Shown here piece by piece: positions 10,701 through 29,548 of a stretch of 64,000 bases of DNA (within the stretch, counting starts at the first letter, position 1; the number at the start of each line of letters is the position of its first letter). The notes under the pieces are model-generated. The model was not told the origin of the DNA, did not search any database, and saw nothing but the letters and a program-made list of their open reading frames with translations. Made by a program: the position numbers and the translations under genes. The DNA is from Phycisphaerae bacterium (lineage in GTDB: Bacteria; Planctomycetota; Phycisphaerae; UBA1845; Fen-1342): assembly GCA_017999985.1 (NCBI GenBank), contig JAGNKU010000008.1:1-64000 (forward strand), in the 5' to 3' direction.

Positions 10701-12137
10701 CTAGCGCGGCCCGCGACCGCGTCCACGACCGCCGTCCGACTGCTGCGGGGAGTCACGCTGGGGCTCGAGTGGCCCTTCTTCGCCCGGCGGCAGAAGCGAC
10801 CGCTTGAGCTGCAACGAGTCAAGGAACTTGTAGAAGTCTTCGATCCACTTTTCGTCGACCCGGCCGAAGATGTCCTCGAATTCCTTTTCCCGCTCGCTCA
10901 CGGTCAACTCGACGTCTTCCTCGCGGTCGAAGACGGTTTTGCAGTACTGGGCGTAGCCGGCGCGGTGTTCCTTCCAGAGGTAGTACACGAGGGACCACCC
11001 CAAGCAATACGAGTCCGCTTCGTTGCCGCGGGGCGGGTTGCGCCACATTTGGTTGTCAACGATGAAGCGCCTCCATTCTTCAAGCGACAGGGGGTGGGGC
11101 CCCCAGGTGGTGCGCAACTGATTGAGGCGGTTGTGGTTCAAGACCCCCAGGCTCGCGCCGGCCGAGGTTGGCGGGACCTCGAACATCATCGTTGTCCCTT
11201 CGACCAGCCACAAGGGAACACTGGCCTTGCGGGCCAAGCCATTGTTCGGGAACAGCCCGATATTGAAGTCGATGTGGTGCCCGGTCTCATGCTGGATCAC
11301 TTCCAGGTTCTGGTTCTCGACCAACCGGTTGACGCGGTTGCGCAGCCGCTGGCGCTCCTGCCACGGCGTGTTCTTGTCCTTGATCCGGGCAACGTCATCG
11401 GCGACGAACGGATGCGTCTCGTAGTCGAAGAAGAACGAACGCCGCGCATCGGGTCGGTAGAAACCCATGACGCCCAGGGGCACCTGCGTCAGGGCCTGAA
11501 ACTCCTTGTAGGTGCCGAAGTAGTGGATCTCCAGCTTGTGTTCCGGGCGGCGCGCCGGGAGGTTTAGCATGCGCATGAACTGCACCTTCCAGCGGTAGAT
11601 CGACTCGACGCGCGAAGCGAGCTTTCTGGCTGCCTCGTCCGACGAAGTGTAGACCATCACGAAGTGCGGCTTGATCAGCACCTTCGCCTCGGGGCCGGCG
11701 ACCTTCTTCATTTCCGCCAGCGATTCCTCGTTCAGCGGCAGCTCGGCCAGCATGTCATCGCGCGCCGCCCCGCTCGTGGATTCGTCCGGGTTGGCCGTCA
11801 CGCCCGAGAGAATGGCCGCGATCTCCGCGTCCGTGATCGCACGCCGGTACGCGGCCCGCTTGGTGCCGCCCGCGCCGCCCGCGCCCGCCGCGGCGGAGGC
11901 TTCCTCGAGCGAACGGAGCTCGCGCACCTCGTTCCGCTTGACCGTCACGACAACGCCGTGCTTGGTCTTCACCTCGTATGAACCGTCCGGCAGCTCCTTG
12001 ACGTCGCCCTCGACGTACTTGCCGTTCATCAGTTCGATGCGGTAGCGCCCTTCGATTTCCGCCCGCGCCGGCGCGACCACCTGCGTGGCCAGCACGACGG
12101 CGGCCAGCAGGGCGAGGATGTGCACTGAATGCCTCAT
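10701..12137 (-). CDS. DUF1570-like secreted gluzincin-type protease (copy 2)
   Basis: A 478-aa protein with a clear signal peptide (MRHSVHILALLAAVVLATQV..., cleavage near ARA at about residue 26). A short beta-type domain follows (IELMNGKYVEGDVKELPDG, residues 34-52) that copy 1 lacks. The protease domain has HETGH at 283-287 and WLVEG with Glu313. The tail is low-complexity Gly/Arg/Pro. The ATG at 12137 puts the signal peptide at the N-terminus; five more in-frame codons lie upstream. This is the upstream gene of the tandem pair and sits divergently from thiL with about 150 bp between starts. Confidence 0.8.
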   Translation of the reverse strand: MRHSVHILALLAAVVLATQVVAPARAEIEGRYRIELMNGKYVEGDVKELPDGSYEVKTKHGVVVTVKRNEVRELRSLEEASAAAGAGGAGGTKRAAYRRAITDAEIAAILSGVTANPDESTSGAARDDMLAELPLNEESLAEMKKVAGPEAKVLIKPHFVMVYTSSDEAARKLASRVESIYRWKVQFMRMLNLPARRPEHKLEIHYFGTYKEFQALTQVPLGVMGFYRPDARRSFFFDYETHPFVADDVARIKDKNTPWQERQRLRNRVNRLVENQNLEVIQHETGHHIDFNIGLFPNNGLARKASVPLWLVEGTTMMFEVPPTSAGASLGVLNHNRLNQLRTTWGPHPLSLEEWRRFIVDNQMWRNPPRGNEADSYCLGWSLVYYLWKEHRAGYAQYCKTVFDREEDVELTVSEREKEFEDIFGRVDEKWIEDFYKFLDSLQLKRSLLPPGEEGPLEPQRDSPQQSDGGRGRGRGPR

Positions 12138-12251
12138 ACCTGGTTCCACCATGACTCAGTTCCCGTCCCCGTCACAAAACTCAACCATGATATTATTCAG
12201 CCAACCGCCGAACTGGCAACCAATTCCTGTGCCACCCCGCCCGGACGGGGC

Positions 12252-14250: not shown

Positions 14251-15681
14251 ATGTTCAGTCGATTGCCCCCGCCAACGTCTGAGTGTTCACGCCGCCCCGG
14301 AAACGTGCTCGCGTGCGTGGCTCTGCTGATAGTCCTGTCAGTGTGTGCGCGTGTGTCGGTCGCTCAGGGCCGGGCCATCGCGCTTCAGGATGCGACGCTG
14401 TTCATCGGCACGGGCCAGGTCATTGAGCACGGCACGGTGATGTTCCAGGATGGCGAGATTCTCGCCGTGGGTGCCGAGGTCAAGCCGTCGTTCCTGGCCC
14501 GCAAGATATCGGTCCCCGGAAAGTACATCACACCCGGGCTGATCGACGCCGGCACGACGCTCGCGCTGCGCGTCGCCCCCGGCGCCAACGTGGCGACGGC
14601 GCGAGCACTCGACGCCTTCGATCCCTATGCGGCGGACGAAATGCGGGCGGCGTGGCGGGACGGCGTGACGGCGGTGTACCTGCCGGCCAGCACGGGCGCG
14701 GGCATCGGTGGGCTGGCGGCGATTGTGCGGCTGGGGCGCCCCACGGAGTCTGACGACTTCGTACTCGCTGGCGAAGCCGAATTGTGTGCGACCGTCGGCG
14801 GCGCGAACCAGCCCGGGCCGCTGGTCCGCGTGAAACTGGTGGAGGAGCTGCGGCGCCGATTCCAGGCGGCCAAGGACTACCGCGACGCCTGGGATGACTA
14901 CCGGGACAGTCTGAAAGAATACGAAGAGAAGCTCGCCGAGCGCGCGAAGAAAGACGCGGCTGCCGGCAAGCCGGACAGCGGCCACGGTCCGGCGGCGAAG
15001 AAAGGCGCTCACGAACAGAAGCCCGATGAGCCGAGCGCAGACAAGAAGGAGCCGGCGAAGGACGAACTCAAGAAACCGACCGAGCCGGCCAAGGACCGGA
15101 GCGCGGAGTTGCTGCTGCGCGTGCTGGACGGCGAGCTGCGCCTGCGCGTCGAAGCCCATGACCCGGCGGACATTCTCAACGTGCTCGATCTCGCGGAGGA
15201 GTTTGGCGTCGCGCTCGTGCTCGAAGGCGCGACGGGGGCCCATCTGGTGGCCGAGCGACTCGCACATCGCGACGTGCCGGTCGTGCTGACAGCGCCACCC
15301 GCGCCGCTCGCTTACACCGGTGGTCCCGAACGGTTCGCCCGCGCCGATGCGGCGGCGCTGCTGAACGGCGCCGGCGTCCGCGTGTACTTCGGCTCGGGGG
15401 CCGTGCCGCTGCCCGATGGCGCGCCGCGGTTGACGTTGCGCGTAGCGCAGGCGACACGCGCGGGTTTCGTCGATGACGCGGGCCTGGTTGCGCTGACCGG
15501 GGGCGCTGCGCGTCTGCTCGGCGTGGAGAAGAAAATTGGACGTCTGGCGACGGGGCTCCAAGCGGATCTCGTGGTCTGGAGCGCGCACCCGCTGTCGCCG
15601 GGGGCGCGCGTCGAGCGCGTCTATGTCGGTGGCCGCGAGGTGTACCGTGCCGAGGGCGGGGCGGAGGGGCAGGACGAATGA
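14251..15681 (+). CDS. Exported amidohydrolase-family protein 1, HxH site lost
   Basis: A 476-aa protein with an N-terminal signal sequence (CVALLIVLSVCARVSVAQ at about 27-44). It has the amidohydrolase N-terminal strand domain (ALQDATLFIGTG...GEILAVG). Where an active enzyme reads PGLIDxHxH, this one reads PGLIDAGTTLALR, so both metal-binding His residues are gone. The C-terminal cap (IGRLATGLQADLVVWSAHPL then VYVGGREVYRA) is intact. A strongly charged Lys/Glu insert (about residues 205-285) interrupts the barrel region. It is the first gene of the eight-gene operon; its TGA overlaps the next ATG by 4 bp. A TATGCT at 14179 is a weak -10 candidate. Confidence 0.8.
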   Translation: MFSRLPPPTSECSRRPGNVLACVALLIVLSVCARVSVAQGRAIALQDATLFIGTGQVIEHGTVMFQDGEILAVGAEVKPSFLARKISVPGKYITPGLIDAGTTLALRVAPGANVATARALDAFDPYAADEMRAAWRDGVTAVYLPASTGAGIGGLAAIVRLGRPTESDDFVLAGEAELCATVGGANQPGPLVRVKLVEELRRRFQAAKDYRDAWDDYRDSLKEYEEKLAERAKKDAAAGKPDSGHGPAAKKGAHEQKPDEPSADKKEPAKDELKKPTEPAKDRSAELLLRVLDGELRLRVEAHDPADILNVLDLAEEFGVALVLEGATGAHLVAERLAHRDVPVVLTAPPAPLAYTGGPERFARADAAALLNGAGVRVYFGSGAVPLPDGAPRLTLRVAQATRAGFVDDAGLVALTGGAARLLGVEKKIGRLATGLQADLVVWSAHPLSPGARVERVYVGGREVYRAEGGAEGQDE

Positions 15682-16844
15682 GCGTACGCCGCAGGCGAGC
15701 CTGGCTGAACGGGTTGGCACTGCTCGTGGCGGTGGTGGCGCCGGCGTGGGCCGATGATCCGCCGGCCGCGGTGCGTGTTCTTGCGGGAGCCCAGTGGGTC
15801 AACGCGGACGGCGAACTCGCGGCTGATGCGCTGCTGGTCATCGGCGGCGAGAAGATCTTGCAGGTGGGGGGAGCTGCGCCGCCGGGCGTGGCGGTGGACA
15901 GTTTTCCGGGCGCCGTGCTGTGCCCGGGCTTGATCGACTGCCAGGCGACGCTGTCGGCGCTGGGGGATCTCTGCGAGCGCCAGTCCGCGGTGCAGCCGCG
16001 GCTGAACTCACGCGCCGCGTTCGATCGCTGCGCCTGGCAGTTGCGACGCGCGCTGGCGGCCGGGGTGACCACATTTGCCCTCGTTCCTGACGATCAGAAC
16101 CTCGTGGGTGGTCACATCGCGGTGTGCCAGACGGCCGGCCCGGGTGGTCGGCCGCGGGTGCTGACGGACGCCGGCCCGTTGAAACTGTCGCTCGCGCCGG
16201 AGGTGTTCAAGGCCGACCGTGAACCGACCTCGCGCAGTGGTGCGCTTGGACTGCTGCGCAGCACGTTGACCGCGGCGCGGGCGGCGCCCGCGACGGATGA
16301 CAGCCCGTTGAAGGCTTTTGCGCAAGGGCGTCTGCCGGGCATCCTGACGGCGCCGAGCGGGGCGGACGTCAGCGCCGCACTGGAGTTCATCAACGAGTAC
16401 AAGTTGCGGCTGGCGGTGAGTCATACGCTGGACGCGCGCCTGGTCGCGGAAGCCGCGGCCGGCCAATTGACGGCGGCGATCGTCGGGCCGCTGGATGCGC
16501 TGGCGGGGCCGCGGGCCGGTGGGGCGGCGGGGCAGTTCGAACGGCATGGCGTGCCGGTCGCGTTGGCGGGTGGGCTGCCGCAGACCGCGCCGGATAGCCT
16601 GCGGATCGGGGCGGCCGTGGCGGTGCGCGAGGGCTTGTCGGCTGCCGCGGCGCGCCGGGCGATCACCGCAGTGCCGGCGGAGTTGCTGGGCGTGGGGGAT
16701 AGGATCGGAGTGCTGCAGCCGGGACGGCAGGCGGACGTGGTCGTGTTCTCGGCCGATCCGCTGGATTTGCGTGCCCGGGTGCTGGCCGTCTACATCGGCG
16801 GTCAGCGGGTCTTCGACGCGGGAGCGTCGCAGACGGGGCCATGA
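15678..16844 (+). CDS. Exported amidohydrolase-family protein 2, HxH site lost
   Basis: A 388-aa protein, the shortest of the eight. It has an N-terminal signal sequence (LNGLALLVAVVAPAWA, then DDPPA). The metal-site segment reads CPGLIDCQATLSAL, so the HxH is absent. The C-terminal family signature is IGVLQPGRQADVVVFSADPLDL then VYIGGQRVFDAG. Starts inside the stop of gene 1 (ATGA) and its own stop overlaps gene 3 in the same way (ATGA at 16841-16844), so translation is likely coupled along the operon. Its body contains the short FINEYKLRLAVSHT stretch in the place where paralogues have a strand-helix pair, which suggests the barrel is reduced rather than truncated. Confidence 0.78.
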   Translation: MSVRRRRAWLNGLALLVAVVAPAWADDPPAAVRVLAGAQWVNADGELAADALLVIGGEKILQVGGAAPPGVAVDSFPGAVLCPGLIDCQATLSALGDLCERQSAVQPRLNSRAAFDRCAWQLRRALAAGVTTFALVPDDQNLVGGHIAVCQTAGPGGRPRVLTDAGPLKLSLAPEVFKADREPTSRSGALGLLRSTLTAARAAPATDDSPLKAFAQGRLPGILTAPSGADVSAALEFINEYKLRLAVSHTLDARLVAEAAAGQLTAAIVGPLDALAGPRAGGAAGQFERHGVPVALAGGLPQTAPDSLRIGAAVAVREGLSAAAARRAITAVPAELLGVGDRIGVLQPGRQADVVVFSADPLDLRARVLAVYIGGQRVFDAGASQTGP

Positions 16845-18292
16845 GAGGTGCGGCCGTGCGACTGAGCGACATCTCACGACGCGGGTTGATGCGGGCGGCG
16901 CTGCTGGCGTCCTGTGTTGTTGGGGCGGCCTACGGTGCGGATGCGGACGGGGTCATCGTGCTCAAGGCTGCGCGGATTCACACCGTGGCCGGCGAGACAC
17001 TAGAAAACGGCGCGATCGTCATTGAGGGGGGGCGTATCACCGCAGTGGGGCCCGACGTGCCGATTCCGGAGGGCGCGCGGGTGATGGAGCACGTGGACGG
17101 CGTCATCACACCCGGCTTGATCGACGCGTGCTGCCTGATCGATTCGGAAATCCCGCAGGAAGCGCGGAGCTGGTCGTACGGGGCGCCGCCGCGGTCGTTC
17201 TGGGGAGCGCTCGGCGAGTACGCCCGCCGCCAGCGCGATGAGCCGGACCCCGAATGCGACCCGATCGAGGACACGGCGCGCACGTTGCCGGACGGGCTCG
17301 CGGCGGCCTTGCCGCCCCAGATCACCTGGACCGAGCAATCCGCGGAGGTCACGCCGCATCGGCGGGTGCTGGACTCCCTGAACCTGTTCTCGAATGACTT
17401 CACGCGGCTGGCGCGCGCTGGCGTGACGACCGTGTACGTATCGGCCGACACGGCGAATGTGATCGGCAACCGCGGCGCGATCGTGAAGACGGCGGGGCCG
17501 CTGGCAGAGCGTGTCATCCGCGGCGTGGATGCGGTGAAAGTCACGCTGGGCGGTGATCCGACGCTGCGTGGGACCGCCAACCTGCTGCCGCCGTCCCATG
17601 GCCCGGCGCCGAGCTTCCTAACCCGCCGACCGACCACGCGGATGGGCGTGGACTGGGTCTTCCGCAAGGCGTTTTACGATGCGCAGCGCGTGCGGGCCGG
17701 GCTCGCGATTCACGGGGCCGACATGCCGCCGACCGAGGCGGTGCCGGTGTTGCTGCAGGTGCTCGACGGCGAGGTGCCACTGCGCGTGCAGGCCCGCATG
17801 CAGCATGACATCTTCTCGGCGCTGCGGCTGGCGGGCGAGTTCAAGCTGAAATTCACGCTCGAAGAGGCGACGGAAGCCTATCGCTGCCTGCCGCAATTGA
17901 AGGCCGCGGGCGTGCCGGTCATCTTCGGGCCACTCTACATGACGCCGACCGGCTTCCGCGCCGCGACCGACGAGGTGGACCGCGCGCGGCTGAACACGCC
18001 CGCGCAACTGGCCGATGCGGGCATCGAGTTTGCGTTGACGGCGCAGGAGCTGCGGGACGAGGAAGGTCTCGTGCGGCAGGGGATGGTTGCCGTCCGGCAC
18101 GGGCTGACGCCGGAGCTGGCGTTGCGGGCCATGACGGCGACGCCAGCGAGTTTCATGGGGCTGGCGGGCGAGGTAGGCGTGATTGCGCCGCGGGCGGCGG
18201 CCGATGTGGTGGTCTGGAGCGGCGAGCCGTTTGACGCCGCAAGCCGCCCGGTGCTGGTGCTGGTGAGCGGCCGCGTGGTGTACAAGGACTAG
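16841..18292 (+). CDS. Exported amidohydrolase-family protein 3, HxH site lost, possible Tat signal
   Basis: A 483-aa protein. The N-terminus SRRGLMRAALLASC resembles a twin-arginine signal, unlike the Sec-type signals of most of its paralogues; this is a visual call. The N-terminal strand domain is VIVLKAARIHTVAGETLENG. The metal-site segment reads ITPGLIDACCLIDSE, with no HxH. The protein keeps VGVIAPRAAADVVVWSGEPFD and VLVSGRVVYKD at the C-terminus. The central region has two segments shared with other paralogues (ARAGVTTVYVSADTANVIGN, and LLQVLDGEVPLRVQ). It starts in an ATGA overlap with gene 2 and is followed after 46 bp by gene 4. Confidence 0.78.
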   Translation: MRGAAVRLSDISRRGLMRAALLASCVVGAAYGADADGVIVLKAARIHTVAGETLENGAIVIEGGRITAVGPDVPIPEGARVMEHVDGVITPGLIDACCLIDSEIPQEARSWSYGAPPRSFWGALGEYARRQRDEPDPECDPIEDTARTLPDGLAAALPPQITWTEQSAEVTPHRRVLDSLNLFSNDFTRLARAGVTTVYVSADTANVIGNRGAIVKTAGPLAERVIRGVDAVKVTLGGDPTLRGTANLLPPSHGPAPSFLTRRPTTRMGVDWVFRKAFYDAQRVRAGLAIHGADMPPTEAVPVLLQVLDGEVPLRVQARMQHDIFSALRLAGEFKLKFTLEEATEAYRCLPQLKAAGVPVIFGPLYMTPTGFRAATDEVDRARLNTPAQLADAGIEFALTAQELRDEEGLVRQGMVAVRHGLTPELALRAMTATPASFMGLAGEVGVIAPRAAADVVVWSGEPFDAASRPVLVLVSGRVVYKD

Positions 18293-18338
18293 GGCGGAAC
18301 GCCGGCCTCCGGCCGTGCGGCGCCCGGGAGAGCGTGTG

Positions 18339-19754
18339 ATGGGTCGCAAGCGATACTGGCGGATGGCGATGGCCACGGCGGCACGCGGGCGGTGGGGTGC
18401 GCTGCTGGTGAGCCTAGGCCTGGCAGTGGTCGCCGTCGCCCAGCCGCCGGCCGTGCCGCCGGAAAAAGTCGCGCTTACCGGCGGACGGATCATCCCCGTG
18501 GTGGGCAGTGAACTCGCCAAGGGTACGATCCTGATCGAGCAGGGCCGGATCGTGGCGGTCGGCGCTGACGTGGAGATTCCGTACGACGCGCGCGTAGTCA
18601 ATGTGACCGGCAAGGTCGTGTTCCCGGGGATGATCGACGTGCACACGGCGCGCGGCCTGGACGTCGCCAACGAGCCGCGTCCGGTGACGCCGCAACTCGA
18701 CGTGGGCGATGCTCTCGATCCGTCGCAACTCTTCTTCGAGGACTGCCTGCGCTTGGGCACGACGGCGGTGCACGTGATTCCGGGCAACAACACGGTCATC
18801 GGCGGGGTCGGCCGCGTGGTGCGTCCGATCGGCCTGACGATCGCCGAGATGACGATCGCCGCGGGCGAGTTCCTCAAGATTTCGCTGTCGCCGCGTAGTG
18901 GCTATGACCGCATGATGCAGCTCGCGACGCTGCGCGAGACGTTCCTGGAGCTGGACGACTATCTTGCCCGGCTGGCGGAGAAGCGCTACGAAGACAAGCT
19001 CAAGGAAGACGACAAGAAGCTCGACGTGGGGCCGGTCGAGGCCCGCAAGCGTGGCCGCGAGTTGATCCGCGCCGAGGACGTCGACGACCAGCATCGCAAC
19101 ATCCTGCGTCTGCTCGGCGGGCAGGTGCGTTTCGGCGGCGAAAGCGGGGCGACGTTGTACAAGCCGCTGGGGGCGTATGCGTACTGCGGCGAGGCGATGG
19201 ACGTCGGCGCCGCCGTGCGCCTGGCGAAGGAAAACGGCTTCTTCGAGCGGCTGGTGCTCGTGCTGGGGGGCGAGTGCCACAAGGCCGTCGGCGAGCTGAA
19301 ACGCGTCGCCCGCCCGGTCGTCCTGCCGCCGGAACTTACTTGGCGCGAAACGGATCCGCTGACCGGGGAAATTCGCGAGACTTTCGTGCCGAAGAAGCTC
19401 TTCGACGCCGGGCTGCTCTGGGCGCTTGTGCCGGGGCCGGATGACTCGTACGCCGAGCGCATGCTCACGTACCAGGCGGCGCAGTGTGTCCGCCACGGCA
19501 TCCCGCGCGACGAGGCGCTGAAGGCGATCACGCTGAATCCCGCCCGCATGCTGCGGCTGGACAGCCGGCTGGGATCGATTGAGGTCGGCAAGGACGCCAA
19601 CCTGGTGGTCTTCAGCGGCGATCCGCTGGACTTCGACAGCGTTGTCGAGCAGGTGTTCATCGAGGGCATTCGCGCCTATGACCGCGGGCAGGACGTCCGG
19701 CTGAAGAAGTTGCTCGCGCCAGGTACCGGCGATTCGCAGGAGAAGCCCGAGTGA
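18339..19754 (+). CDS. Exported amidohydrolase-family protein 4, second metal His lost
   Basis: A 471-aa protein with an N-terminal signal sequence ending near VVAVAQ. The metal-site segment reads FPGMIDVHTARGLDV: the first His of HxH is retained but the second is Ala, so it is partly degraded. GTTAVHVIPGNNTVIGG follows, a motif shared by several paralogues. The C-terminal cap is LGSIEVGKDANLVVFSGDPLDF then VFIEGIRAYDRG. The ATG at 18339 was chosen over a GTG at 18315 because a GGGAG lies about 9 nt upstream and the signal peptide is complete. A charged Lys/Asp/Glu helix stretch (about 215-245) precedes the ligand-less barrel half. Its last codons overlap the GTG of gene 5. Confidence 0.8.
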   Translation: MGRKRYWRMAMATAARGRWGALLVSLGLAVVAVAQPPAVPPEKVALTGGRIIPVVGSELAKGTILIEQGRIVAVGADVEIPYDARVVNVTGKVVFPGMIDVHTARGLDVANEPRPVTPQLDVGDALDPSQLFFEDCLRLGTTAVHVIPGNNTVIGGVGRVVRPIGLTIAEMTIAAGEFLKISLSPRSGYDRMMQLATLRETFLELDDYLARLAEKRYEDKLKEDDKKLDVGPVEARKRGRELIRAEDVDDQHRNILRLLGGQVRFGGESGATLYKPLGAYAYCGEAMDVGAAVRLAKENGFFERLVLVLGGECHKAVGELKRVARPVVLPPELTWRETDPLTGEIRETFVPKKLFDAGLLWALVPGPDDSYAERMLTYQAAQCVRHGIPRDEALKAITLNPARMLRLDSRLGSIEVGKDANLVVFSGDPLDFDSVVEQVFIEGIRAYDRGQDVRLKKLLAPGTGDSQEKPE

Positions 19755-22654
19755 CGCGACCGGCGCACGTCTGGCGACGGTTGGCGGTCGGCGTGACCGC
19801 GACGGCCCTGCTGTGCCTGTGCGGCAGCGGCGATCAGCTCGTCGTGCGGCCGGCGACGCAGAGCGCGGCCGCCGCGCCGGCGGACAAAGCGTCGTTCGTC
19901 CTGCGGGCGAAGGCGGTCTACCCAGCGACGGTGGAGCAACCCGGGCCGTTGCCCGAGGGCATGGTGGTAGTGCGCAGCGGCCGCATCGTGGCGGTGGGCC
20001 GCCAGCTCGCCGTTTCGCCGGATCTGCCGCTCATCGAACTACGTGACGAGGTGGTCTGTCCGGGGTTCGTGTCGGCCGGCGGATCGCTGGTGCGCCCGCA
20101 CGCCGGGCCGCAATCCGTCAGCGCCGCGTTTCACGCCGTGGACGCGTTCGACACGTACGACGATTACGTTGGGCCGCTGTCGCGCGGGACGACCACGGCG
20201 TACCTGAGTCCGGGCGAGCATCGCCTCGTCAGCGGCCTGGGCGCCGTCGTGAAGCTCGGCGGGGCTCCGGAAGAACGGACGGTCGTGCCGGCGGCTGATC
20301 TCGCCGTCACGTTCGGCGAGTTTGATCCGCCGCTGCTGTACAAGCCGCCGTTCTATGCCTCCTCCGACGTGCCGATTGAGCCGGCCCGCGGGCAGCGTCC
20401 CGATTCGCGCCTGGGGCAGTTCATTGAGCTGGAAGAGCGTATCGCTGCGGCGGAGCAAGGGGCCGGTGCGCGCGCGGGCGAGTTCGACATTCACGCGCAT
20501 GAGTTCGCGGCGGCGTGGGCGGCGGCGCTGCCGCTGCGCATCCAGGTTCGCCGGGCCGTGGACATCGAGGGGGCGCTGCGGCTGGTCGAGCGGCTCGCGC
20601 GCGGTGGGCAACGTCGCTCCGCGTATCTCGTCGGTCTGACCGAGGGCGACCGGCTGCTCGACGTGCTGGGCGACGAATCCGTAGCGGCGGTGCTGCGCAG
20701 CCTGCCGCTGGTGGTGCGCGTCGAGCGTAGCTTCCGCGCGCCGGGGCCGAACATCGGCGATGATCCGGGGGCGCTGGAGCCGCGCCTGGCGACCGCGGAG
20801 CGCATCGCGGCGCGACTGCCCGGCGTGATTGCCCTCGCCGGTGCCGCGGGGGATGACGCGGAAGATCTGCGCATGGCGGCGGTGCTTGCCGTTCGCGGCG
20901 GGCTGTCGGCGGAGCAGGCGCTCGCCGGGATCACGCGTGTGCCGGCCGAGATTCTCCGTGTGGCCGATCGCGTGGGCAGTCTTACGCCGGGCACTGACGC
21001 CGACTTGCTGGTGCTCAGTGGTGCGCCGCTGGACATCAACAGCTTCGTACGTCGGGCCTACATCGGCGGGCGCGTCGTCTTTGAAGCGCCGCGCCCCGCG
21101 CGTCGCGAGCCGCCGGCGTCGCAACCGGCCGAGCCGCTCGTGTTGCGCGCGGGCACGATCTGGGTGGGCGATGGCACGATCATCCGCGACGGATCGCTGC
21201 TCATCGAGAACGGCCGCATCCAGGCCGTTGGGCAGCGTGTCGCGCATCCGCCGTTCGCGAGAATCATCGACGCCGGCGCGGACGGGTTCCTGGCGCCGGG
21301 CTTCATTGATGCGCTGGGGCATCTGGGATTGGAGGGCGACACCACGCCGGCGACGCCCGACGTGCCATTGCATCGCACCATCGCGACGGTCGGGCGGATG
21401 TTCGCGCGTGTGGCACGGGCGGGCGTGACGACGGTGGTGCAAGCGCCGTATCGCGCCGCGCAGAACGGGGCGCGGCTCGCTGCGCTCAAGACCTACGGCC
21501 GCGGGCGCGACGAGCTGGTGGCGCGCGAGCTCAGCGGCCTGCGCCTGTCGCTGCGCGGCCAGGATCCGCTGACCGGTGCAGAGGCGCTGCGCAAGGTCCT
21601 GCAAGCCGGCCGCAAGTACGACGAGGACTGGAAGAAATACGAAGCCGAGCTGGCCAAGTGGAAGGAGAGCGGCGGCAAGCCGGCCGAAAAGCCGAAAGAG
21701 GAGGCGCAGAAGGTCGAGCAGGGCAGGGCCGATCCAATCACCGGCCGCTGGGAGTACGCGCTGCATGGTGGCCCGCTGCCGGAAGCGGTGACCGGCACGG
21801 TCACGCTGAAGCTCACCGGCAACACGATTGACGGGCGTCTGTCCGACCCGACCAGCGGCGAAGAAGTCCGCGTGTCGGGCACGTTGAGCGGCACCGAGGT
21901 GAACCTCGACGTTGATATCGACACGCCCGCCGGGCGCCCAACCATTCGTGCCACGCTGGATCGCGAAGACCACATGGTCGGCCGCGTGACGGTTGCCGAG
22001 ATCACGCTGGATTTCGAGGCCACCCGCACCGACAAGAGCGCTGTCGAGTTCAAGATCCAGCTCAGGAGCAAGCGCACCAAGGATGGCCGTCCGGCACCGC
22101 CGAAGGTCGATCCAAACCTCGAACCGTACCGCGCGCTGCTGGCCGGGCGCATCCCGGCAGTGGTGGATGTCGAGACGGCGCCGCAGATTCACGCCGCATT
22201 GCAGCTGTTCGTCGACGAATTCAAGGTGCCGCTCGTGCTGCTGGGTGCCGAGGGTGCCGCCGACGTCGTCGCTGAGCTTGTCGCCCGCAAGGCGGGGCTT
22301 GGCGTGATCGTGCCGCTGCAGGTGGTGCGCACGCGGGCAGGCCGGCCGTACAACCAGGCGGCGGACCTCGCGCGGCAGGGCATTCGCGTGGCGTTACAGA
22401 GCGACAGCGAGGACGGTGCCCGTGACCTGCCGCTCGTCGGCCTGTTCGCTGTCCGCGAGGGTCTCGGTGGCGACGCCGCCCTGCGGGCGCTGACGATCGA
22501 TGCCGCGCAGATGTACAAGCTCGACGACCGCGTTGGCTCGCTGGAAGTGGGCAAAGACGCGGATGTGCTGATCTTCGACGGTCATCCGTTCGACGCCGGC
22601 AGCCGGTTGCAGCGGGTGATCGTGGGGGGACGTGAGGTGCCGGATGAACCGTAA
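19751..22654 (+). CDS. Exported double amidohydrolase-family protein 5 (fusion), both HxH sites lost
   Basis: A 967-aa protein built from two complete amidohydrolase modules. Module 1 spans about residues 45-445: strand domain, FVSAGGSLVRPH in place of the HxH segment, and cap VGSLTPGTDADLLVLSGAPLD. A short PASQPAEP linker follows. Module 2 spans about 455-967: GTIWVGDGTIIRDGS, APGFIDALGHLGLEG with only one His, and cap VGSLEVGKDADVLIFDGHPFD. Module 2 carries an inserted beta-rich domain of about 110 residues (from ITGRWEYALHGG to LDFEATRTDKS) preceded by a charged Lys/Glu helix. The GTG start overlaps gene 4 (GTGA). The N-terminal signal is LAVGVTATALLCLCG. Neither module has a full metal site. 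Confidence 0.8.
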   Translation: MTRPAHVWRRLAVGVTATALLCLCGSGDQLVVRPATQSAAAAPADKASFVLRAKAVYPATVEQPGPLPEGMVVVRSGRIVAVGRQLAVSPDLPLIELRDEVVCPGFVSAGGSLVRPHAGPQSVSAAFHAVDAFDTYDDYVGPLSRGTTTAYLSPGEHRLVSGLGAVVKLGGAPEERTVVPAADLAVTFGEFDPPLLYKPPFYASSDVPIEPARGQRPDSRLGQFIELEERIAAAEQGAGARAGEFDIHAHEFAAAWAAALPLRIQVRRAVDIEGALRLVERLARGGQRRSAYLVGLTEGDRLLDVLGDESVAAVLRSLPLVVRVERSFRAPGPNIGDDPGALEPRLATAERIAARLPGVIALAGAAGDDAEDLRMAAVLAVRGGLSAEQALAGITRVPAEILRVADRVGSLTPGTDADLLVLSGAPLDINSFVRRAYIGGRVVFEAPRPARREPPASQPAEPLVLRAGTIWVGDGTIIRDGSLLIENGRIQAVGQRVAHPPFARIIDAGADGFLAPGFIDALGHLGLEGDTTPATPDVPLHRTIATVGRMFARVARAGVTTVVQAPYRAAQNGARLAALKTYGRGRDELVARELSGLRLSLRGQDPLTGAEALRKVLQAGRKYDEDWKKYEAELAKWKESGGKPAEKPKEEAQKVEQGRADPITGRWEYALHGGPLPEAVTGTVTLKLTGNTIDGRLSDPTSGEEVRVSGTLSGTEVNLDVDIDTPAGRPTIRATLDREDHMVGRVTVAEITLDFEATRTDKSAVEFKIQLRSKRTKDGRPAPPKVDPNLEPYRALLAGRIPAVVDVETAPQIHAALQLFVDEFKVPLVLLGAEGAADVVAELVARKAGLGVIVPLQVVRTRAGRPYNQAADLARQGIRVALQSDSEDGARDLPLVGLFAVREGLGGDAALRALTIDAAQMYKLDDRVGSLEVGKDADVLIFDGHPFDAGSRLQRVIVGGREVPDEP

Positions 22655-23915
22655 GCCTGCCTGGACCTCCGGCGTGGTCCGCATGCTGCTGCTGACGTGG
22701 CTGGCGGCCGCGACTGGGCTGGCCGCTGAACAGACGGAGTTGACGTCCGCCGGTCTGGCGTTCCGTGTCGCGAAAGTCGTCGCGCTGGACGACACCGATC
22801 GGGTCATCAATGACGCGGTGGTGCTCGTGAAGGGCAATCAGATCGAGGCGCTGGGCCCGGCCGATGAGGTCGAGGTGCCGGCCGGCTATCGCGTGCTGGA
22901 TTTCCCCGACTATTGGCTGCTGCCGGGCATCGTCGAGGCCCACGATCACAGCGCGGCCGGCAGTTGGGGCGACCTCAACGACATGGTCTATCAGACGAAT
23001 CCCGGCCTCGACAGCCGCTCCGTCCCGCGGCCCGACAACCCCTGGATCAAACGCGCCCGCACCGGTGGCGTGACGACCGTGATGATGATCCCGGGCAGCG
23101 GCACGAACCTCTCCGGTTTCGGTACCATCGTGAACACCGGCGGCAAGACGCCGGACGAAATCTTCATGGTCTCGCCCGGATCGCTGAAGATCGCGCAGGC
23201 TGGCAATCCGGAATGGTACTTCGGCGGCAACGGCCGGATGTTCATGAACTGGAACCTGCGGCAGACGCTGGAGAAAGCCCGGGCGTATGCTGCGGCATGG
23301 GATGCGTACGAGCGCGGCGAGCGGAGCGTGGCGCCCGAACTGGACCCGATCTGGGACGGCTTCCGCGCCGTGTTTCGCCGCGAGATCTGCGTCGTCATGC
23401 ACACGCAGATGTACCAGGTGCTGATGACCACGATGGACATGATCGCCGGGCATTTCGGGCTCTGGACGGTGCTGGATCACTGCACGTTCGATGCCTGGAA
23501 GCTGGGGCCGATCGTCCGCGAGACGGATGCGTGGACCATCAACGGCCCGCGCCAGTACTACTTCGACGCCACGGCCCGGCGCTGTATCGGCAACGCCAGC
23601 GGGTGGTGGAAGAACGGCGTGCGCCGGCTCGGCATTAATACCGACGCGCCGGTCGTGCCGCAGGAGGAACTGACGTACCAGGCGGCGATGGCCTGCTGGT
23701 ACGGCTGGCTGCCCTACCCGGCCCTCCGCGGCATCACGAACATTACCGCGAAGTCCATCGGCGTATACGACCGCGTGGGTAGCGTGGAGACCGGCAAGCA
23801 GGCCGACCTCAGTCTCTGGACCGGCGACCCGCTCGACCCGCGCTCCGCGTGCCTGATGACCGTGATCGGCGGCCGGATCGTGTACGACGGCACCCAGGGA
23901 CTGCGGCGGTTCTAG
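22644..23915 (+). CDS. Exported amidohydrolase 6, the only one with a complete metal site
   Basis: A 423-aa protein with a signal sequence (MLLLTWLAAATGLAA). Unlike its seven paralogues, it keeps plausible ligands for a metal-dependent amidohydrolase: HxH in GIVEAHDHSAAG, a His in CVVMHTQMY, a His in VLDHCTFDAW, and the catalytic Asp in GINTDAPVV. The cap is VGSVETGKQADLSLWTGDPLD then VIGGRIVYDG. It is therefore the best candidate for an active hydrolase (imidazolonepropionase/dipeptidase-like branch); the substrate is unknown. The ATG at 22644 has a GAGGTG Shine-Dalgarno and overlaps gene 5 by 11 bp. No carbamylated Lys position could be assigned with confidence. Confidence 0.85.
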   Translation: MNRKPAWTSGVVRMLLLTWLAAATGLAAEQTELTSAGLAFRVAKVVALDDTDRVINDAVVLVKGNQIEALGPADEVEVPAGYRVLDFPDYWLLPGIVEAHDHSAAGSWGDLNDMVYQTNPGLDSRSVPRPDNPWIKRARTGGVTTVMMIPGSGTNLSGFGTIVNTGGKTPDEIFMVSPGSLKIAQAGNPEWYFGGNGRMFMNWNLRQTLEKARAYAAAWDAYERGERSVAPELDPIWDGFRAVFRREICVVMHTQMYQVLMTTMDMIAGHFGLWTVLDHCTFDAWKLGPIVRETDAWTINGPRQYYFDATARRCIGNASGWWKNGVRRLGINTDAPVVPQEELTYQAAMACWYGWLPYPALRGITNITAKSIGVYDRVGSVETGKQADLSLWTGDPLDPRSACLMTVIGGRIVYDGTQGLRRF

Positions 23916-23923
23916 GAACGGCC

Positions 23924-25228
23924 ATGACCAGTGTTCCACAGTCCTGCGGATTGAGTCTGAAGCGGCTGGCCCGCGGCGCGGGTGTTGCCGTGGTGTTCAT
24001 GCTGCTTGCGGCGCCCGTACTCTGCGCTGATGAACCGGAGCGCCTGACTGTCATCCGCGCCGGCAAGATCATCACGGGCACCGGCGAGGAGATCCACGAC
24101 GGCGTCATCGTGCTCAACGGCGCCAAGATCCAAAACGTCGGCAAGGGGCTCGAATATCCGCTGAATGCGAAAGTCATCGACGCCCGTAACCGCGTCGTCA
24201 TGCCCGGGCTCATCAACCCCAGCTCGCGCTTCGGCCTGCCGGGCTATCACCGCGCGGAGGTCCATGGCAACTGGACCGTCGCCGACGAGTACTTCCCCGC
24301 GCCCGATGCCTACGACGAACTGCTGGACGCCGGGTACACGACGCTCGCGCTGGTGCCGGGGGGCGGCGGGATTCCCGGCCGGGCGATCGTCGTGCACACC
24401 GCGGGTGCGCAGGAGCAGCGTGTGCTGCAGGCGCCGGCGTATCTCCGCGTGACGCCGGACAAGCGCGTGCTTCGCGGGGCGCTCGAACGGGCGCAGCAGG
24501 AAATCGAGAAGGTCGAGAAGGCCAAGCAGGAGTTCGAGAAGAAGCAGGAGCAGGAGCGTAGGGCCGCACCGCCGGCCAGCCAACCCGCCTCGCAGCCCGG
24601 GTCGCAGCCGACCAGCGTGCCCGCGACGCAGCCCGCGTTCCAGCCGCCGCCGATCGATCCCGCGTTCCAGGTGCTCGTCGATCTGATCCAGAAGAAGCCG
24701 GATGTGTTCGCGCTGCTGGAGCTCGGCAGTGCCTCCGACTATGTACACTTCAGCGAAGTGCTCAAGAAGTTCGATGTCGCGCACCAGTTCCTGGCGCGCA
24801 ACGGCCAGCAGTCGGACTTCACGTTTATTGCCGAACAAATCGGCGCGAAGAAGCCGCGGGTGGTCCTCCAGCCGGTGATCAACCGGGCGCCGAACTCGGC
24901 CGAGCGTATCCACGTCGTCCGGCAGTTCGCGCAGGCCGGCTGCGAAGTGTCGTTGATGCCGCTGGCGGATGATGCCGAGGAGCACCGGCAGATGCTTGGC
25001 CGCATCGCGCTGCTGGTGCGCGAGGGCTGGACGCGGGCCGAGGCGCTCAAGGCGGTCACGCTCCACCCGGCGCGACTCCTCGGGCTCGACAGCCGGTTTG
25101 GGAGCATCGAGAAGGACAAGGACGCCGACCTGATCTTCCTCGACGCCGACCCGCTCGATCCGCTGGCCCGCGTGCGTGAGGTGATGATCGCCGGCGAGAT
25201 CGTCCGCCGCGTGGAGGTGCCGCAGTGA
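23924..25228 (+). CDS. Exported amidohydrolase-family protein 7, HxH site lost
   Basis: A 434-aa protein with an N-terminal signal (VAVVFMLLAAPVLCA, then DEPERL). The strand domain is IRAGKIITGTGEEIHDG. The metal-site segment reads MPGLINPSSRFGLPG, with no HxH. A coiled-coil-like Glu/Lys segment leads into a repetitive Pro/Ser/Gln linker (ASQPASQPGSQPTSVPATQP), resembling the linker in gene 8. The cap is FGSIEKDKDADLIFLDADPLD. The ATG at 23924 follows gene 6 by 8 bp with an AGGA Shine-Dalgarno. The ARAEALKAVTLHPARLLGLD-type helix before the cap is shared with gene 4, so genes 4 and 7 look closest to each other. Confidence 0.78.
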   Translation: MTSVPQSCGLSLKRLARGAGVAVVFMLLAAPVLCADEPERLTVIRAGKIITGTGEEIHDGVIVLNGAKIQNVGKGLEYPLNAKVIDARNRVVMPGLINPSSRFGLPGYHRAEVHGNWTVADEYFPAPDAYDELLDAGYTTLALVPGGGGIPGRAIVVHTAGAQEQRVLQAPAYLRVTPDKRVLRGALERAQQEIEKVEKAKQEFEKKQEQERRAAPPASQPASQPGSQPTSVPATQPAFQPPPIDPAFQVLVDLIQKKPDVFALLELGSASDYVHFSEVLKKFDVAHQFLARNGQQSDFTFIAEQIGAKKPRVVLQPVINRAPNSAERIHVVRQFAQAGCEVSLMPLADDAEEHRQMLGRIALLVREGWTRAEALKAVTLHPARLLGLDSRFGSIEKDKDADLIFLDADPLDPLARVREVMIAGEIVRRVEVPQ

Positions 25229-26679
25229 TGCTCCGCCCGGCCACAAGCTGGCGTTGGTGCGCCGCCCTGCTGTGCTTGGCGCTCGCGCTGCCCGTAGTCG
25301 CGCAGTCGCCGGCGGAGTCGCAGCCCAGCGACACGCAGCCTGCATCGCAGCCAGCCAGGCAACCCGTATCGCAACCGGCGACCCAGCCCGTATCGCAGCC
25401 GGCTTCCGCGGCGACCAGCAGCCTCCCTACGACCACGACCGCTACTACGTCCACGACGACCGTGGCGACGACACAGGCCGCGCCGGAGAAAGAGCGGTTT
25501 CTCGCGGTCATCAACGGCCGCGTCCACACCGTGACCGGCCCGGTGCTCGAACGCGCCACCGTGCTTTCGCGCAACGGCATCATCACCGCCATCGGCGAGC
25601 ACGTCGTGCTGCCGCCGGAGTGCGTGGTGGTCGATGCCACGGGGCTGGAGGTGTATCCGGGCCTGGTCGCGGCGGTCGCCGGTGGGCTTCACGGGGGCAA
25701 TCAGCCGCGCGACACGACGAACGTGTACGCGCTGAACATGGCGATCGCGCTGGCCGGCGGCATCACCACGGCGCTGGCCGGCAATGACGTGGCGAAGTTG
25801 ACCTACGGCACGACGCAGGACCTGATCCTGAAGGCCAATGCGTACTTGAACATCAACTACGCGACCCGCAGCCCGCTGGAGCGTGCGCAACTGCGGGCCG
25901 ACCTGGAGCGCGTCCGCACGTACCTGCGTGACGTGCAGCGCTTCGAGCGCGAGAAGGCGGTGAACAAGGACGCGAAGCCGCCGGACAAGGAGTGGCTCAA
26001 AGAGAAGTACGAGAACTACCGCAAGCTGCTGGCGCGTGAAGTAATCTCGGTTGCGACGGCCAACAGCACGCACGAGCTGGCCGACCTCGCGGACCTCGCG
26101 CAGACCTACGGCTTCGACCTGGTCGTGCGCGGGGCGGTCGAGGGCTGGACCGTGGCACCCGCTCTGGGCCGCGCCGGCGTGCGGGCGGTGATTACGCCGC
26201 GCGACGAGCGCGCCCCCGATGACCGGTTCAACCGCCCGAACGGTTCGTCGATCGAGAACGCGCGCATTTTGCACACGCACGGCGTGACGGTGGCGGTCGT
26301 GCCGCCGACGGCGGCGATCACGTTGTGGGGGCTCGCCGGCCGCGACCTGCTGCATCTGAACATGGAGGCGGCGTTCGCGGTGCGCGGTGGTTTGAGCAAT
26401 GACGCGGCGGTGCGGACGATCACGATCGACGCGGCGCGGGTGCTGGGCGTGGACGACCGGATCGGCTCGCTCGAAGTGGGCAAGGACGCGGACCTCGTGG
26501 TCTGCGACGGCGACCTGCTGCACTACATGACGCAGGTGCGCTACACGATCGTCAATGGCCGCGTGGCGTACGACAAGGCGAAGGAAACGCTGTTCGCCCA
26601 CATTCGCCCGCAAGGCAAGCCCGAGGTCCCGCAATTCGACGATTACTGGCCGCGCCGGCTGCAGTGGGTGGGGGAGTGA
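25225..26679 (+). CDS. Exported amidohydrolase-family protein 8, HxH site lost
   Basis: A 484-aa protein, last of the operon. The signal is CAALLCLALALPVVAQ, followed by a long Ser/Gln/Pro/Thr-rich linker (about residues 25-85; SQPASQPARQPVSQPATQP). Where the HxH should be, the sequence reads YPGLVAAVAGGLHGG. The cap is IGSLEVGKDADLVVCDGDLLH then VNGRVAYDKAKE, and a C-terminal extension ends in FDDYWPRRLQWVGE. GGAGG at 25213-25217 precedes two adjacent in-frame starts: GTG at 25225, overlapping the TGA of gene 7, and ATG at 25228; either is possible. No terminator hairpin is apparent after the TGA. Confidence 0.78.
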   Translation: MMLRPATSWRWCAALLCLALALPVVAQSPAESQPSDTQPASQPARQPVSQPATQPVSQPASAATSSLPTTTTATTSTTTVATTQAAPEKERFLAVINGRVHTVTGPVLERATVLSRNGIITAIGEHVVLPPECVVVDATGLEVYPGLVAAVAGGLHGGNQPRDTTNVYALNMAIALAGGITTALAGNDVAKLTYGTTQDLILKANAYLNINYATRSPLERAQLRADLERVRTYLRDVQRFEREKAVNKDAKPPDKEWLKEKYENYRKLLAREVISVATANSTHELADLADLAQTYGFDLVVRGAVEGWTVAPALGRAGVRAVITPRDERAPDDRFNRPNGSSIENARILHTHGVTVAVVPPTAAITLWGLAGRDLLHLNMEAAFAVRGGLSNDAAVRTITIDAARVLGVDDRIGSLEVGKDADLVVCDGDLLHYMTQVRYTIVNGRVAYDKAKETLFAHIRPQGKPEVPQFDDYWPRRLQWVGE

Positions 26680-27229: not shown

Positions 27230-29548
27230 ATGAATTGTCCATCACGAGCGACGCGGATCGTTCTGTCGGTTGCGGCGGCCATCGTGGGGTTGGTCGGATT
27301 GAGTTCTGTGAACCGTGCCGCGGGGCAGTCGTGCGATTGGCGGGATGGTACAGGTGTGGCGGGTACGGACGGCGTGGTCAACGCCGCCACGACATGGGAC
27401 CCGGACGATACCGGGCCACTGCCGGAGCTGCTCGTGATCGGTGGGGCGTTCACGGTCGCCGGTGCGACGCCGGCGAGTAGAATCGCCGCCTGGGACGGCA
27501 ACGCGTGGCAGGCCCTCGGCAGCGGGATGGACGGCACGGTACTGGCGTTGACGGTCCACGATGGCGCGTTGGTCGCCGGGGGTAGTTTCACAACGGCCGG
27601 CGGGGTCACCTGCAACTTCATCGCGCGCTGGGACGGAGTAACCTGGGAGCCCTTGGGCAGCGGGATGGGGGCAGCCGTACGTGCGCTGGCGGTCCGTGAC
27701 GGCGATTTGATCGCCGGTGGAGAGTTCCTGACCACCGGAGGTGCATCGTGCGCGCGTGTGGCCCGCTGGGACGGGACCGACTGGCAGGCGTTGAGCAGTG
27801 GGACGAACAACTGGGTCAACGCGTTGACGGTCTACGACGGCGATCTGATCGCGGGGGGCGAATTTACGCTGGCGGGTGACGTGGAATGCAACCGGGTGGC
27901 GCGCTGGGACGGGACGGGCTGGGCGTCGCTGGGCGCCGGAGTGGGCGGCAGCGCCGCCGCCAAGGTGTACGCCCTGGCGGTTCACGGCAGCGAGTTGATC
28001 GCAGGAGGGTGGTTCCCCACTGCAGGCGGATTAACCTGCAACGGCATCGGCCGCTGGGACGGTGTGGCTTGGCAGCCATTGGGCGGAGGAATGGCGGCGG
28101 TAGGGATTTCCGGAACCGTGCGGGCGATAGCCGTCTACGACGGCGCTCTGATCGCGGGCGGCTGGTTTGTCACCGCGGACAACGTACCGTGCAACAACAT
28201 CGGTCGCTGGAATGGCGTGACCTGGGAGGCGCTGGCCGAGGGTACGGATGGCACGGTGACTGCGCTGACGGCGTACGCTGGTGAACTGGTTGGCGGAGGG
28301 CTATTCGGCCGCGCGAGCGGTGTCGGGTGCAATTGCGTGGCGCGCTGGGATGGCGGGGGCTGGCATCCGCTGAGTACGGGATTCGACGGCAGCATCCGCG
28401 CCGTCTGGGCTTCGGGTGGCGTGCTGTTCGCCGGCGGCGATTTCCTCGGCGCGCCAGATGGGGTCATCTGCAACGGCGTTGGTCAGTGGGATGGTAGCAC
28501 ATGGCAGGCACTGGACAGCGGGACTGACGGTCCGGTGCGCGCCATCACGGAGTACGACGGCGACATTGTGATCGGTGGTCAGTTCATCACGGCGGGCGGT
28601 GTAACCTGCAACAGCATCAGTCATTGGAACGGTGCGGCGTGGGAGCCACTGGGCGGTGGCATGACCGACCCGGAATTTGCGGCGAGCGTGAACGCCATGA
28701 CCGTGTATGAGGGTGAATTGATCGCGGCGGGGTTGTTCGCGGCGGCGGACGGCGTGCCGTGCGACCACATTGCGCGCTGGAACGGTACAACCTGGCAGCC
28801 GCTCGGCGAAGGCATCGGCGGCCCCGTGTACGCCTTGGCGGTCTACCACGATGAACTGGTCGCGGGCGGCTACTTCAGTTCTGCGGGCGGCGTCGCGGTG
28901 TTCAGTATCGCGCGCTGGAATGGCGCGATGTGGCAGTGGCCGGAGTCTGGCGTGGTCGGTTCGATCTACGCGTTCACCGTCTACAACGACGAGTTGATCG
29001 TGGGCGGCGATATCGACTTCGCAGGCGGACAGTATTGCGGTCACATCGCCCGCTGGGACGGCGCAGAGATGCTGCCGCTGTCGACGATCGGCATGTCTCA
29101 CCCGGTGCAGGCACTTACCGTCTACAATGGCGAACTGATCGCTGGCGGCCTGTTCGGCCGCTCCGGGGGCACGCTCTGCTCCCGGATCGCGCGTTGGGAT
29201 GGCGCAACGTGGGGGCCGCTGGGCGGCGGGCTGGGCGGCGCGGTGTATGCGCTCGGCGCATACGGCGGCGACCTGGTCGCGGGCGGCGCGTTTGCGACGG
29301 CCGGTGAGCATGTCTCATCCCGTTGGGCCCGGTGGCGCTGTGAGTCGGTCGTCGGCGACTTGGACTGCGACGGCGCCGTCGATTTCGGCGACATCAACCC
29401 GTTCGTGCTGTACATGTCGAACTTCGCGGTATGGCAAACCACGTACCATGGTTGCCCGCCGGAGAACGGGGATATAAACCTAGATGGCACGTATCCGTCG
29501 TTTGGCGACATCAATCTGTTCGTCGAGTTGTTAAGCACAGGCGGATAG
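27230..29548 (+). CDS. Secreted 14-repeat propeller-like protein with dockerin-like tail
   Basis: A 772-aa protein with a signal peptide (VLSVAAAIVGLVGLSSVNRAAG). From about residue 65 to 700 it holds thirteen full and one partial repeat of about 46-51 residues, consensus L-I-A-G-G-x-F-x-x-A-G-G-V-x-C-N-x-I-A-R-W-D-G-x-x-W-x-P-L-G-x-G-M. Such W-D-G/A-G-G repeats suggest stacked beta-propeller blades (two seven-bladed propellers would fit fourteen). The tail has two dockerin-type calcium loops: GDLDCDGAVDFGDINPFV and GDINLDGTYPSFGDINLFV. It is probably a cell-surface or extracellular binding protein. A GGAGG Shine-Dalgarno precedes the ATG. The ligand is unknown. Confidence 0.8.
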   Translation: MNCPSRATRIVLSVAAAIVGLVGLSSVNRAAGQSCDWRDGTGVAGTDGVVNAATTWDPDDTGPLPELLVIGGAFTVAGATPASRIAAWDGNAWQALGSGMDGTVLALTVHDGALVAGGSFTTAGGVTCNFIARWDGVTWEPLGSGMGAAVRALAVRDGDLIAGGEFLTTGGASCARVARWDGTDWQALSSGTNNWVNALTVYDGDLIAGGEFTLAGDVECNRVARWDGTGWASLGAGVGGSAAAKVYALAVHGSELIAGGWFPTAGGLTCNGIGRWDGVAWQPLGGGMAAVGISGTVRAIAVYDGALIAGGWFVTADNVPCNNIGRWNGVTWEALAEGTDGTVTALTAYAGELVGGGLFGRASGVGCNCVARWDGGGWHPLSTGFDGSIRAVWASGGVLFAGGDFLGAPDGVICNGVGQWDGSTWQALDSGTDGPVRAITEYDGDIVIGGQFITAGGVTCNSISHWNGAAWEPLGGGMTDPEFAASVNAMTVYEGELIAAGLFAAADGVPCDHIARWNGTTWQPLGEGIGGPVYALAVYHDELVAGGYFSSAGGVAVFSIARWNGAMWQWPESGVVGSIYAFTVYNDELIVGGDIDFAGGQYCGHIARWDGAEMLPLSTIGMSHPVQALTVYNGELIAGGLFGRSGGTLCSRIARWDGATWGPLGGGLGGAVYALGAYGGDLVAGGAFATAGEHVSSRWARWRCESVVGDLDCDGAVDFGDINPFVLYMSNFAVWQTTYHGCPPENGDINLDGTYPSFGDINLFVELLSTGG

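Follow-up and report, generated by a model that had tools for sequence, protein, structure and literature searches.

A conserved planctomycete operon sets an intact amidohydrolase among eight paralogous modules with incomplete metal sites and may encode one hetero-oligomeric enzyme

Why would a bacterium keep a row of amidohydrolase-like genes of which a single one retains the metal site of an active enzyme? The question is raised by a locus in the window (the whole 64,000-nucleotide stretch of Phycisphaerae bacterium DNA analysed here), where a first-pass annotation had described eight consecutive one-strand genes, one of them double, and proposed that one active enzyme is made with a family of inactive relatives. 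Eight collinear ORFs indeed run in one direction on the + strand from 14251 to 26679. All eight encoded proteins pass the cut-off of PF01979 (Pfam Amidohydro_1), and gene 5 matches it twice; with the seven single matches this gives nine modules, g1-g4, g5a, g5b and g6-g8, which we call live or dead according to whether their set of metal ligands is complete. The features are as follows:

14251..15681, + strand: g1, putatively exported and amidohydrolase-like, metal site absent (PGLIDAGTTLAL)
15678..16844, + strand: g2, putatively exported and amidohydrolase-like, metal site absent (PGLIDCQATLSA); of the ligands it retains just the beta-4 Lys
16841..18292, + strand: g3, putatively exported and amidohydrolase-like, metal site absent (PGLIDACCLIDS); Gln/Glu at the beta-5/beta-6 His positions
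18315..19754, + strand: g4, putatively exported and amidohydrolase-like, metal site absent except for the first His and the beta-4 Lys (PGMIDVHTARGL)
19751..22654, + strand: g5, two naturally fused dead modules, g5a (~19751-21085) and g5b (~21086-22654)
21731..22042 (approximate limits), + strand: beta-rich insert in g5b, seen in the g5 model
22644..23915, + strand: g6, amidohydrolase with an intact binuclear-type site (HxH, Lys, His, His, Asp); nearest structure 3ooq
23924..25228, + strand: g7, dead module (PGLINPSSRFGL); ATG 23924 preferred as start over GTG 23849
25225..26679, + strand: g8, dead module (PGLVAAVAGGLH); its putative signal sequence is followed by a Gln/Pro/Thr-rich linker

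If gene 7 starts at 23924, which is the more likely start, the successive junctions measure -4, -4, +22, -4, -11, +8 and -4 bp, and 5 of the 7 are overlaps (by 4 or 11 bp), as had been noted. The annotation had also given all eight proteins signal peptides. Using a home-made heuristic that scored 292 of 336 cluster proteins, as against 25% of internal control segments, we found signal-peptide-like N-termini in g2-g7; g1 and g8 of the window did not score, though both have a hydrophobic N-terminus that looks like a signal peptide by eye.

The nearest solved structure is 3ooq, an uncharacterised COG1228-type amidohydrolase of Thermotoga maritima (E = 1.5e-45 for g4 and 1.3e-34 for g6). The AlphaFold model of g6 (pLDDT 87, pTM 0.90) superimposes on it with a TM of 0.81 at 28% identity, and one module of the more moderate g5 model (pLDDT 75, pTM 0.65) fits it with a TM of 0.73. 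The Pfam matches of 8/8 proteins and the alignment of these two models to 3ooq place the set in the amidohydrolase superfamily fold. Within the window, pairwise identity of the other modules to g6 is 21-29%. None of the named enzyme families tested reaches its cut-off with any of the eight proteins: the imidazolonepropionase HutI profile TIGR01224 gives at most 65.8 bits (gene 5, two modules summed) against a cut-off of 298, and the Xaa-Pro dipeptidase profile NF051886 at most 61.6 bits (g6) against 500. The beta-rich insert of g5b (~21731-22042), which is conserved in near relatives, has no confident Pfam match, with DUF4873 appearing below threshold only.

We then compared the metal ligands. 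Gene 6 alone has EAHDH in its beta-1 segment; both His of this segment are absent from genes 1, 2, 3, 5 (module 1), 7 and 8, and a lone His is left in gene 4 (DVHTA) and in module 2 of gene 5 (DALGH), the very distribution that had been read from the sequence before. In a motif-anchored alignment, g6 has the HxH, the beta-4 Lys (which we take to be the bridging carboxylated residue of the binuclear site), the beta-5 His, the beta-6 His and the beta-8 Asp, in agreement with the earlier reading that gene 6 alone keeps HxH, two more His and the Asp. Aligned to it, g4 retains the first His and the beta-4 Lys, g2 and g3 the beta-4 Lys, and the window's g5b the second His and the beta-8 Asp, having lost the first His and the Lys; g1, g5a, g7 and g8 keep almost no ligands. 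In the window, then, no module of g1-g5, g7 and g8 has the complete ligand set of an active amidohydrolase, and the alignment makes no alternative metal site evident in these eight. The count of seven genes without an HxH site holds, but six metal positions matter rather than two, and by that measure eight of nine modules are incomplete.

A cluster of this kind could be a tandem duplication of one hydrolase in decay, with functionless dead copies; all modules are, after all, paralogous, and eight have lost the active site. Its distribution speaks otherwise. Among 294 sampled Planctomycetota genomes, g6 was found in 94, about a third (E <= 1e-40), and g4 in 86; 85 genomes carry both (Fisher p ~3e-62), such that dead g4 and live g6 co-occur almost perfectly. 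Nine g6 genomes seemingly lack g4, but the search threshold accounts for at least part of this: in G060, G098 and G288, three of the nine, the fetched locus does contain g4. When the surroundings of ~70 matches were taken for gene-order comparison, 40 complete clusters remained after duplicate removal, and 40/40 showed one order in one direction: first six dead modules, then between one and five intact copies of g6, and finally two more dead ones. The cluster is thus not unique to its source genome; it is widespread and collinear. Nor does any member decay independently, since comparisons of close relatives give a dN/dS of 0.006-0.35 at each position, with g6 lowest in most of them, and reading frames are intact almost everywhere across cluster members. 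Every position is under purifying selection, and the phylum-wide order, the dN/dS values and the orthologous clades described below refute decay, to which we assign next to no probability. One locus, L101, departs in its frames, with g4 and g5 in a single 1,473-residue frame and g1 split over two, by fusion, frameshift or assembly error.

In a maximum-likelihood tree of 39 clusters, g4, g5b and g8 each grouped by position in 39/39, g1, g5a and g7 in 38/39, g3 in 37/39 and g2 in 33/39, and all 56 g6 copies fell together. By this tree the nine positions are nine orthologous groups common to the phylum, each monophyletic or nearly so. Since paralogues within one cluster are only ~27% identical, the nine types had already separated before these planctomycete lineages split. 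Between positions, the distance matrices are correlated (Spearman mostly 0.5-0.84, against a mean of 0 and a maximum of 0.33 in the shuffled control), as expected from co-inheritance. The best conserved dead modules are g4 and g8. In some families g6 has multiplied two to five times; all copies are intact, and they are old, having positional orthologues in related genomes. Tandem multiplication is confined to the live module, while the dead set stays constant at eight.

These groups bear on the idea that the dead modules are regulatory decoys, entering exchangeable mixed oligomers with g6 and tuning or inhibiting its activity. Homologous oligomeric folds make mixed oligomers likely, and relatives in the family crystallise with 8-16 chains per entry; however, nine distinct orthologous groups kept over a phylum suggest a place of its own for each, and we hold exchangeable decoys to be improbable.

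Could the eight modules instead be enzymes with altered catalysis, using mononuclear or rebuilt metal sites or metal-independent chemistry? Across clusters, all six ligands are present in 56/56 g6 copies versus 0/312 other modules, counted by aligned column and with the g2 of one cluster, L134, excepted. That g2 has the complete set (HAH, K, H, H, D), the only one found outside g6 in nine-module clusters. HxH is also kept in g2 of three further clusters and in g5b of 9/40, mostly near relatives of the window's genome; in those nine, the Lys and Asp are mostly kept as well, the beta-5 and beta-6 His never. Moreover, g4 mostly retains its first His and Lys across clusters. Retention of HxH in some g2 and g5b modules makes the loss of the active site there appear later, or incomplete, in some lineages, and in other species certain "dead" positions may bind metal or be active. 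To this extent the picture of one active enzyme with inactive relatives needs amending: the cluster is widespread and without decay, but in a few genomes g2 (complete) or g5b (a half site) keeps ligands. As an account of the whole set, altered catalysis is nonetheless quite unlikely, given that HxH was never seen in g1, g3, g4, g5a, g7 or g8 in 46 cluster records, that the window's own g5b lacks the first His and Lys, and that the pocket columns are not conserved.

The pockets themselves were informative. Within g6, the fifteen positions matching its invariant active-site residues have a conservation of 0.99, versus 0.63 for the barrel. In each dead group the equivalent positions vary as much as barrel positions drawn at random, and those of g2 and g5b are significantly less conserved. 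As dead-module pockets are not preferentially conserved, the constraint on these modules lies elsewhere, in a pattern that would suit structural or interface roles better than ligand binding.

This weighs on the further suggestion that each dead module is a periplasmic binding protein or receptor in its own right, for a ligand related to the g6 substrate, serving capture or sensing. The modules are putatively exported, paralogous and stably distinct from one another, and TIM-barrel folds can retain a pocket after metal loss. Yet the equivalents of the g6 pocket are not preferentially conserved in any dead group, which counts against the receptor role put forward in the first-pass annotation. 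In addition, the flanks examined hold no conserved transporter, TonB receptor or sensor neighbour, and binding alone leaves the dead-live-dead fusions described below unexplained. We therefore regard receptors as unlikely. More generally, no neighbour family is consistently linked to the cluster, at most nine of the flanks examined sharing one, and the cluster looks self-contained. In the window, an AIRS-type kinase gene (ThiL-like by eye) and TsaE lie upstream. A beta-propeller repeat protein with a dockerin-like C-terminus is encoded directly downstream (27230-29548), and a DUF1570 protein with a QHETGHH-type metallopeptidase motif at 10701-12152 on the - strand.

The same subfamily also occurs in smaller forms, as a pair of one live and one dead gene, and as a dead-live-dead triplet made of three genes, of a two-module chain plus a gene, or of a single ~1,500-residue chain. 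The order was dead-live-dead in 12/12 single chains examined. An apparent loss of the beta-6 His in live modules of triplets was rejected as an alignment shift, the His being present. When all forms were placed in one tree, their live modules clustered with 3ooq (support 0.92), and the dead ones from pairs and triplets made up a clade of their own (0.89), apart from the nine-module set. Outside Planctomycetota, sampling extended to a single phylum, probably Bacteroidota, that was entered via a locus in a Flavobacteriales-titled genome; pairs and triplets occur there too. A contig in a genome with the title Flavobacteriales (L058 / L163) ends in a planctomycete-like live-live-dead-dead cluster and is possibly misbinned. 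The single-chain planctomycete proteins (L168, L170, L189-L198) are likely annotated as plain amidohydrolases, and in the gene pairs (L151, L164-L167, L169) the first His is retained in most of the dead partners (DAHSVVGL).

The strongest sign here that such modules act as one unit is the covalent joining of a live module to a dead one on either side. It lends indirect support to the earlier suggestion of scaffold or assembly partners, of which the complex itself stays a prediction. Taken together, these results lead us to the reading that we consider probable, namely that the operon encodes one exported hetero-oligomeric metallohydrolase in which g6 is catalytic and the dead paralogues are structural or regulatory subunits. 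In such an enzyme g6, or several diversified g6 copies in some lineages, would supply the binuclear metal active site, and the eight other modules, as fixed non-catalytic paralogous subunits, would build the oligomer, completing or shaping that site or regulating access to it. Its periplasmic location, physical complex and stoichiometry are what we infer, and a small amide, peptide-like or cyclic amide substrate is our guess from the superfamily. A constant dead set with a multiplied g6 fits a constant frame with diversified catalytic subunits. Gene order and co-inheritance would also be compatible with a shared pathway lacking physical contact.

More tentatively, one may picture a phylum-wide exported assembly in which at least nine paralogous TIM-barrel subunits each have a place of their own and only one is catalytic. 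This would be a division of labour like that of the proteasome or ClpPR, but within the amidohydrolase superfamily, and other lineages would have it in forms of two and three modules. A live copy number of 1-5 excludes a universal nine-subunit stoichiometry, making a fixed nine-subunit particle unlikely.

Parts of the proposed hetero-oligomer have precedents. Pseudomonas aeruginosa ATCase needs inactive dihydroorotase chains for activity (PMC7053772), so that an inactive amidohydrolase-fold chain is an obligatory structural subunit there, a role proposed here from genes. That system differs in being cytoplasmic and in having one dead chain and a live partner that is a transcarbamoylase, not a paralogue; no adjacent transcarbamoylase gene turned up among the flanking genes scanned with Pfam. 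In plastid and cyanobacterial ClpPR, several dead paralogues (ClpR) assemble with live ones into one core complex (PMC6508832). ClpPR differs in having an unrelated serine protease fold and live subunit types that are no fewer than the dead ones, as opposed to 1 live to 8 dead here. Closest in family are the live-dead pairs and the dead-live-dead chains and triplets, which set a live module of the same subfamily beside dead ones, but have two or three modules, not nine, and dead modules of a separate clade. The closest solved structure to g6 and g4, 3ooq, belongs to the live-module clade and is a single intact protein, for which our literature search found no reported function. We found no description of this operon in the open-access literature, in line with the annotation's statement that it knew of no such system. 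The pseudoenzyme-subunit principle is already known; what is new, as far as can be told, is the scale, with eight dead positions for a single live one, and the phylum-wide fixed order.

Because these proteins match general amidohydrolase profiles, a share of annotated planctomycete "enzymes" may serve as non-catalytic subunits. Should the complex be real, the two-, three- and nine-module forms would offer a natural series for studying how pseudoenzymes turn into obligatory partners, and the operon would represent an uncharacterised, widely conserved exported enzyme system in a phylum whose cell biology is poorly understood.
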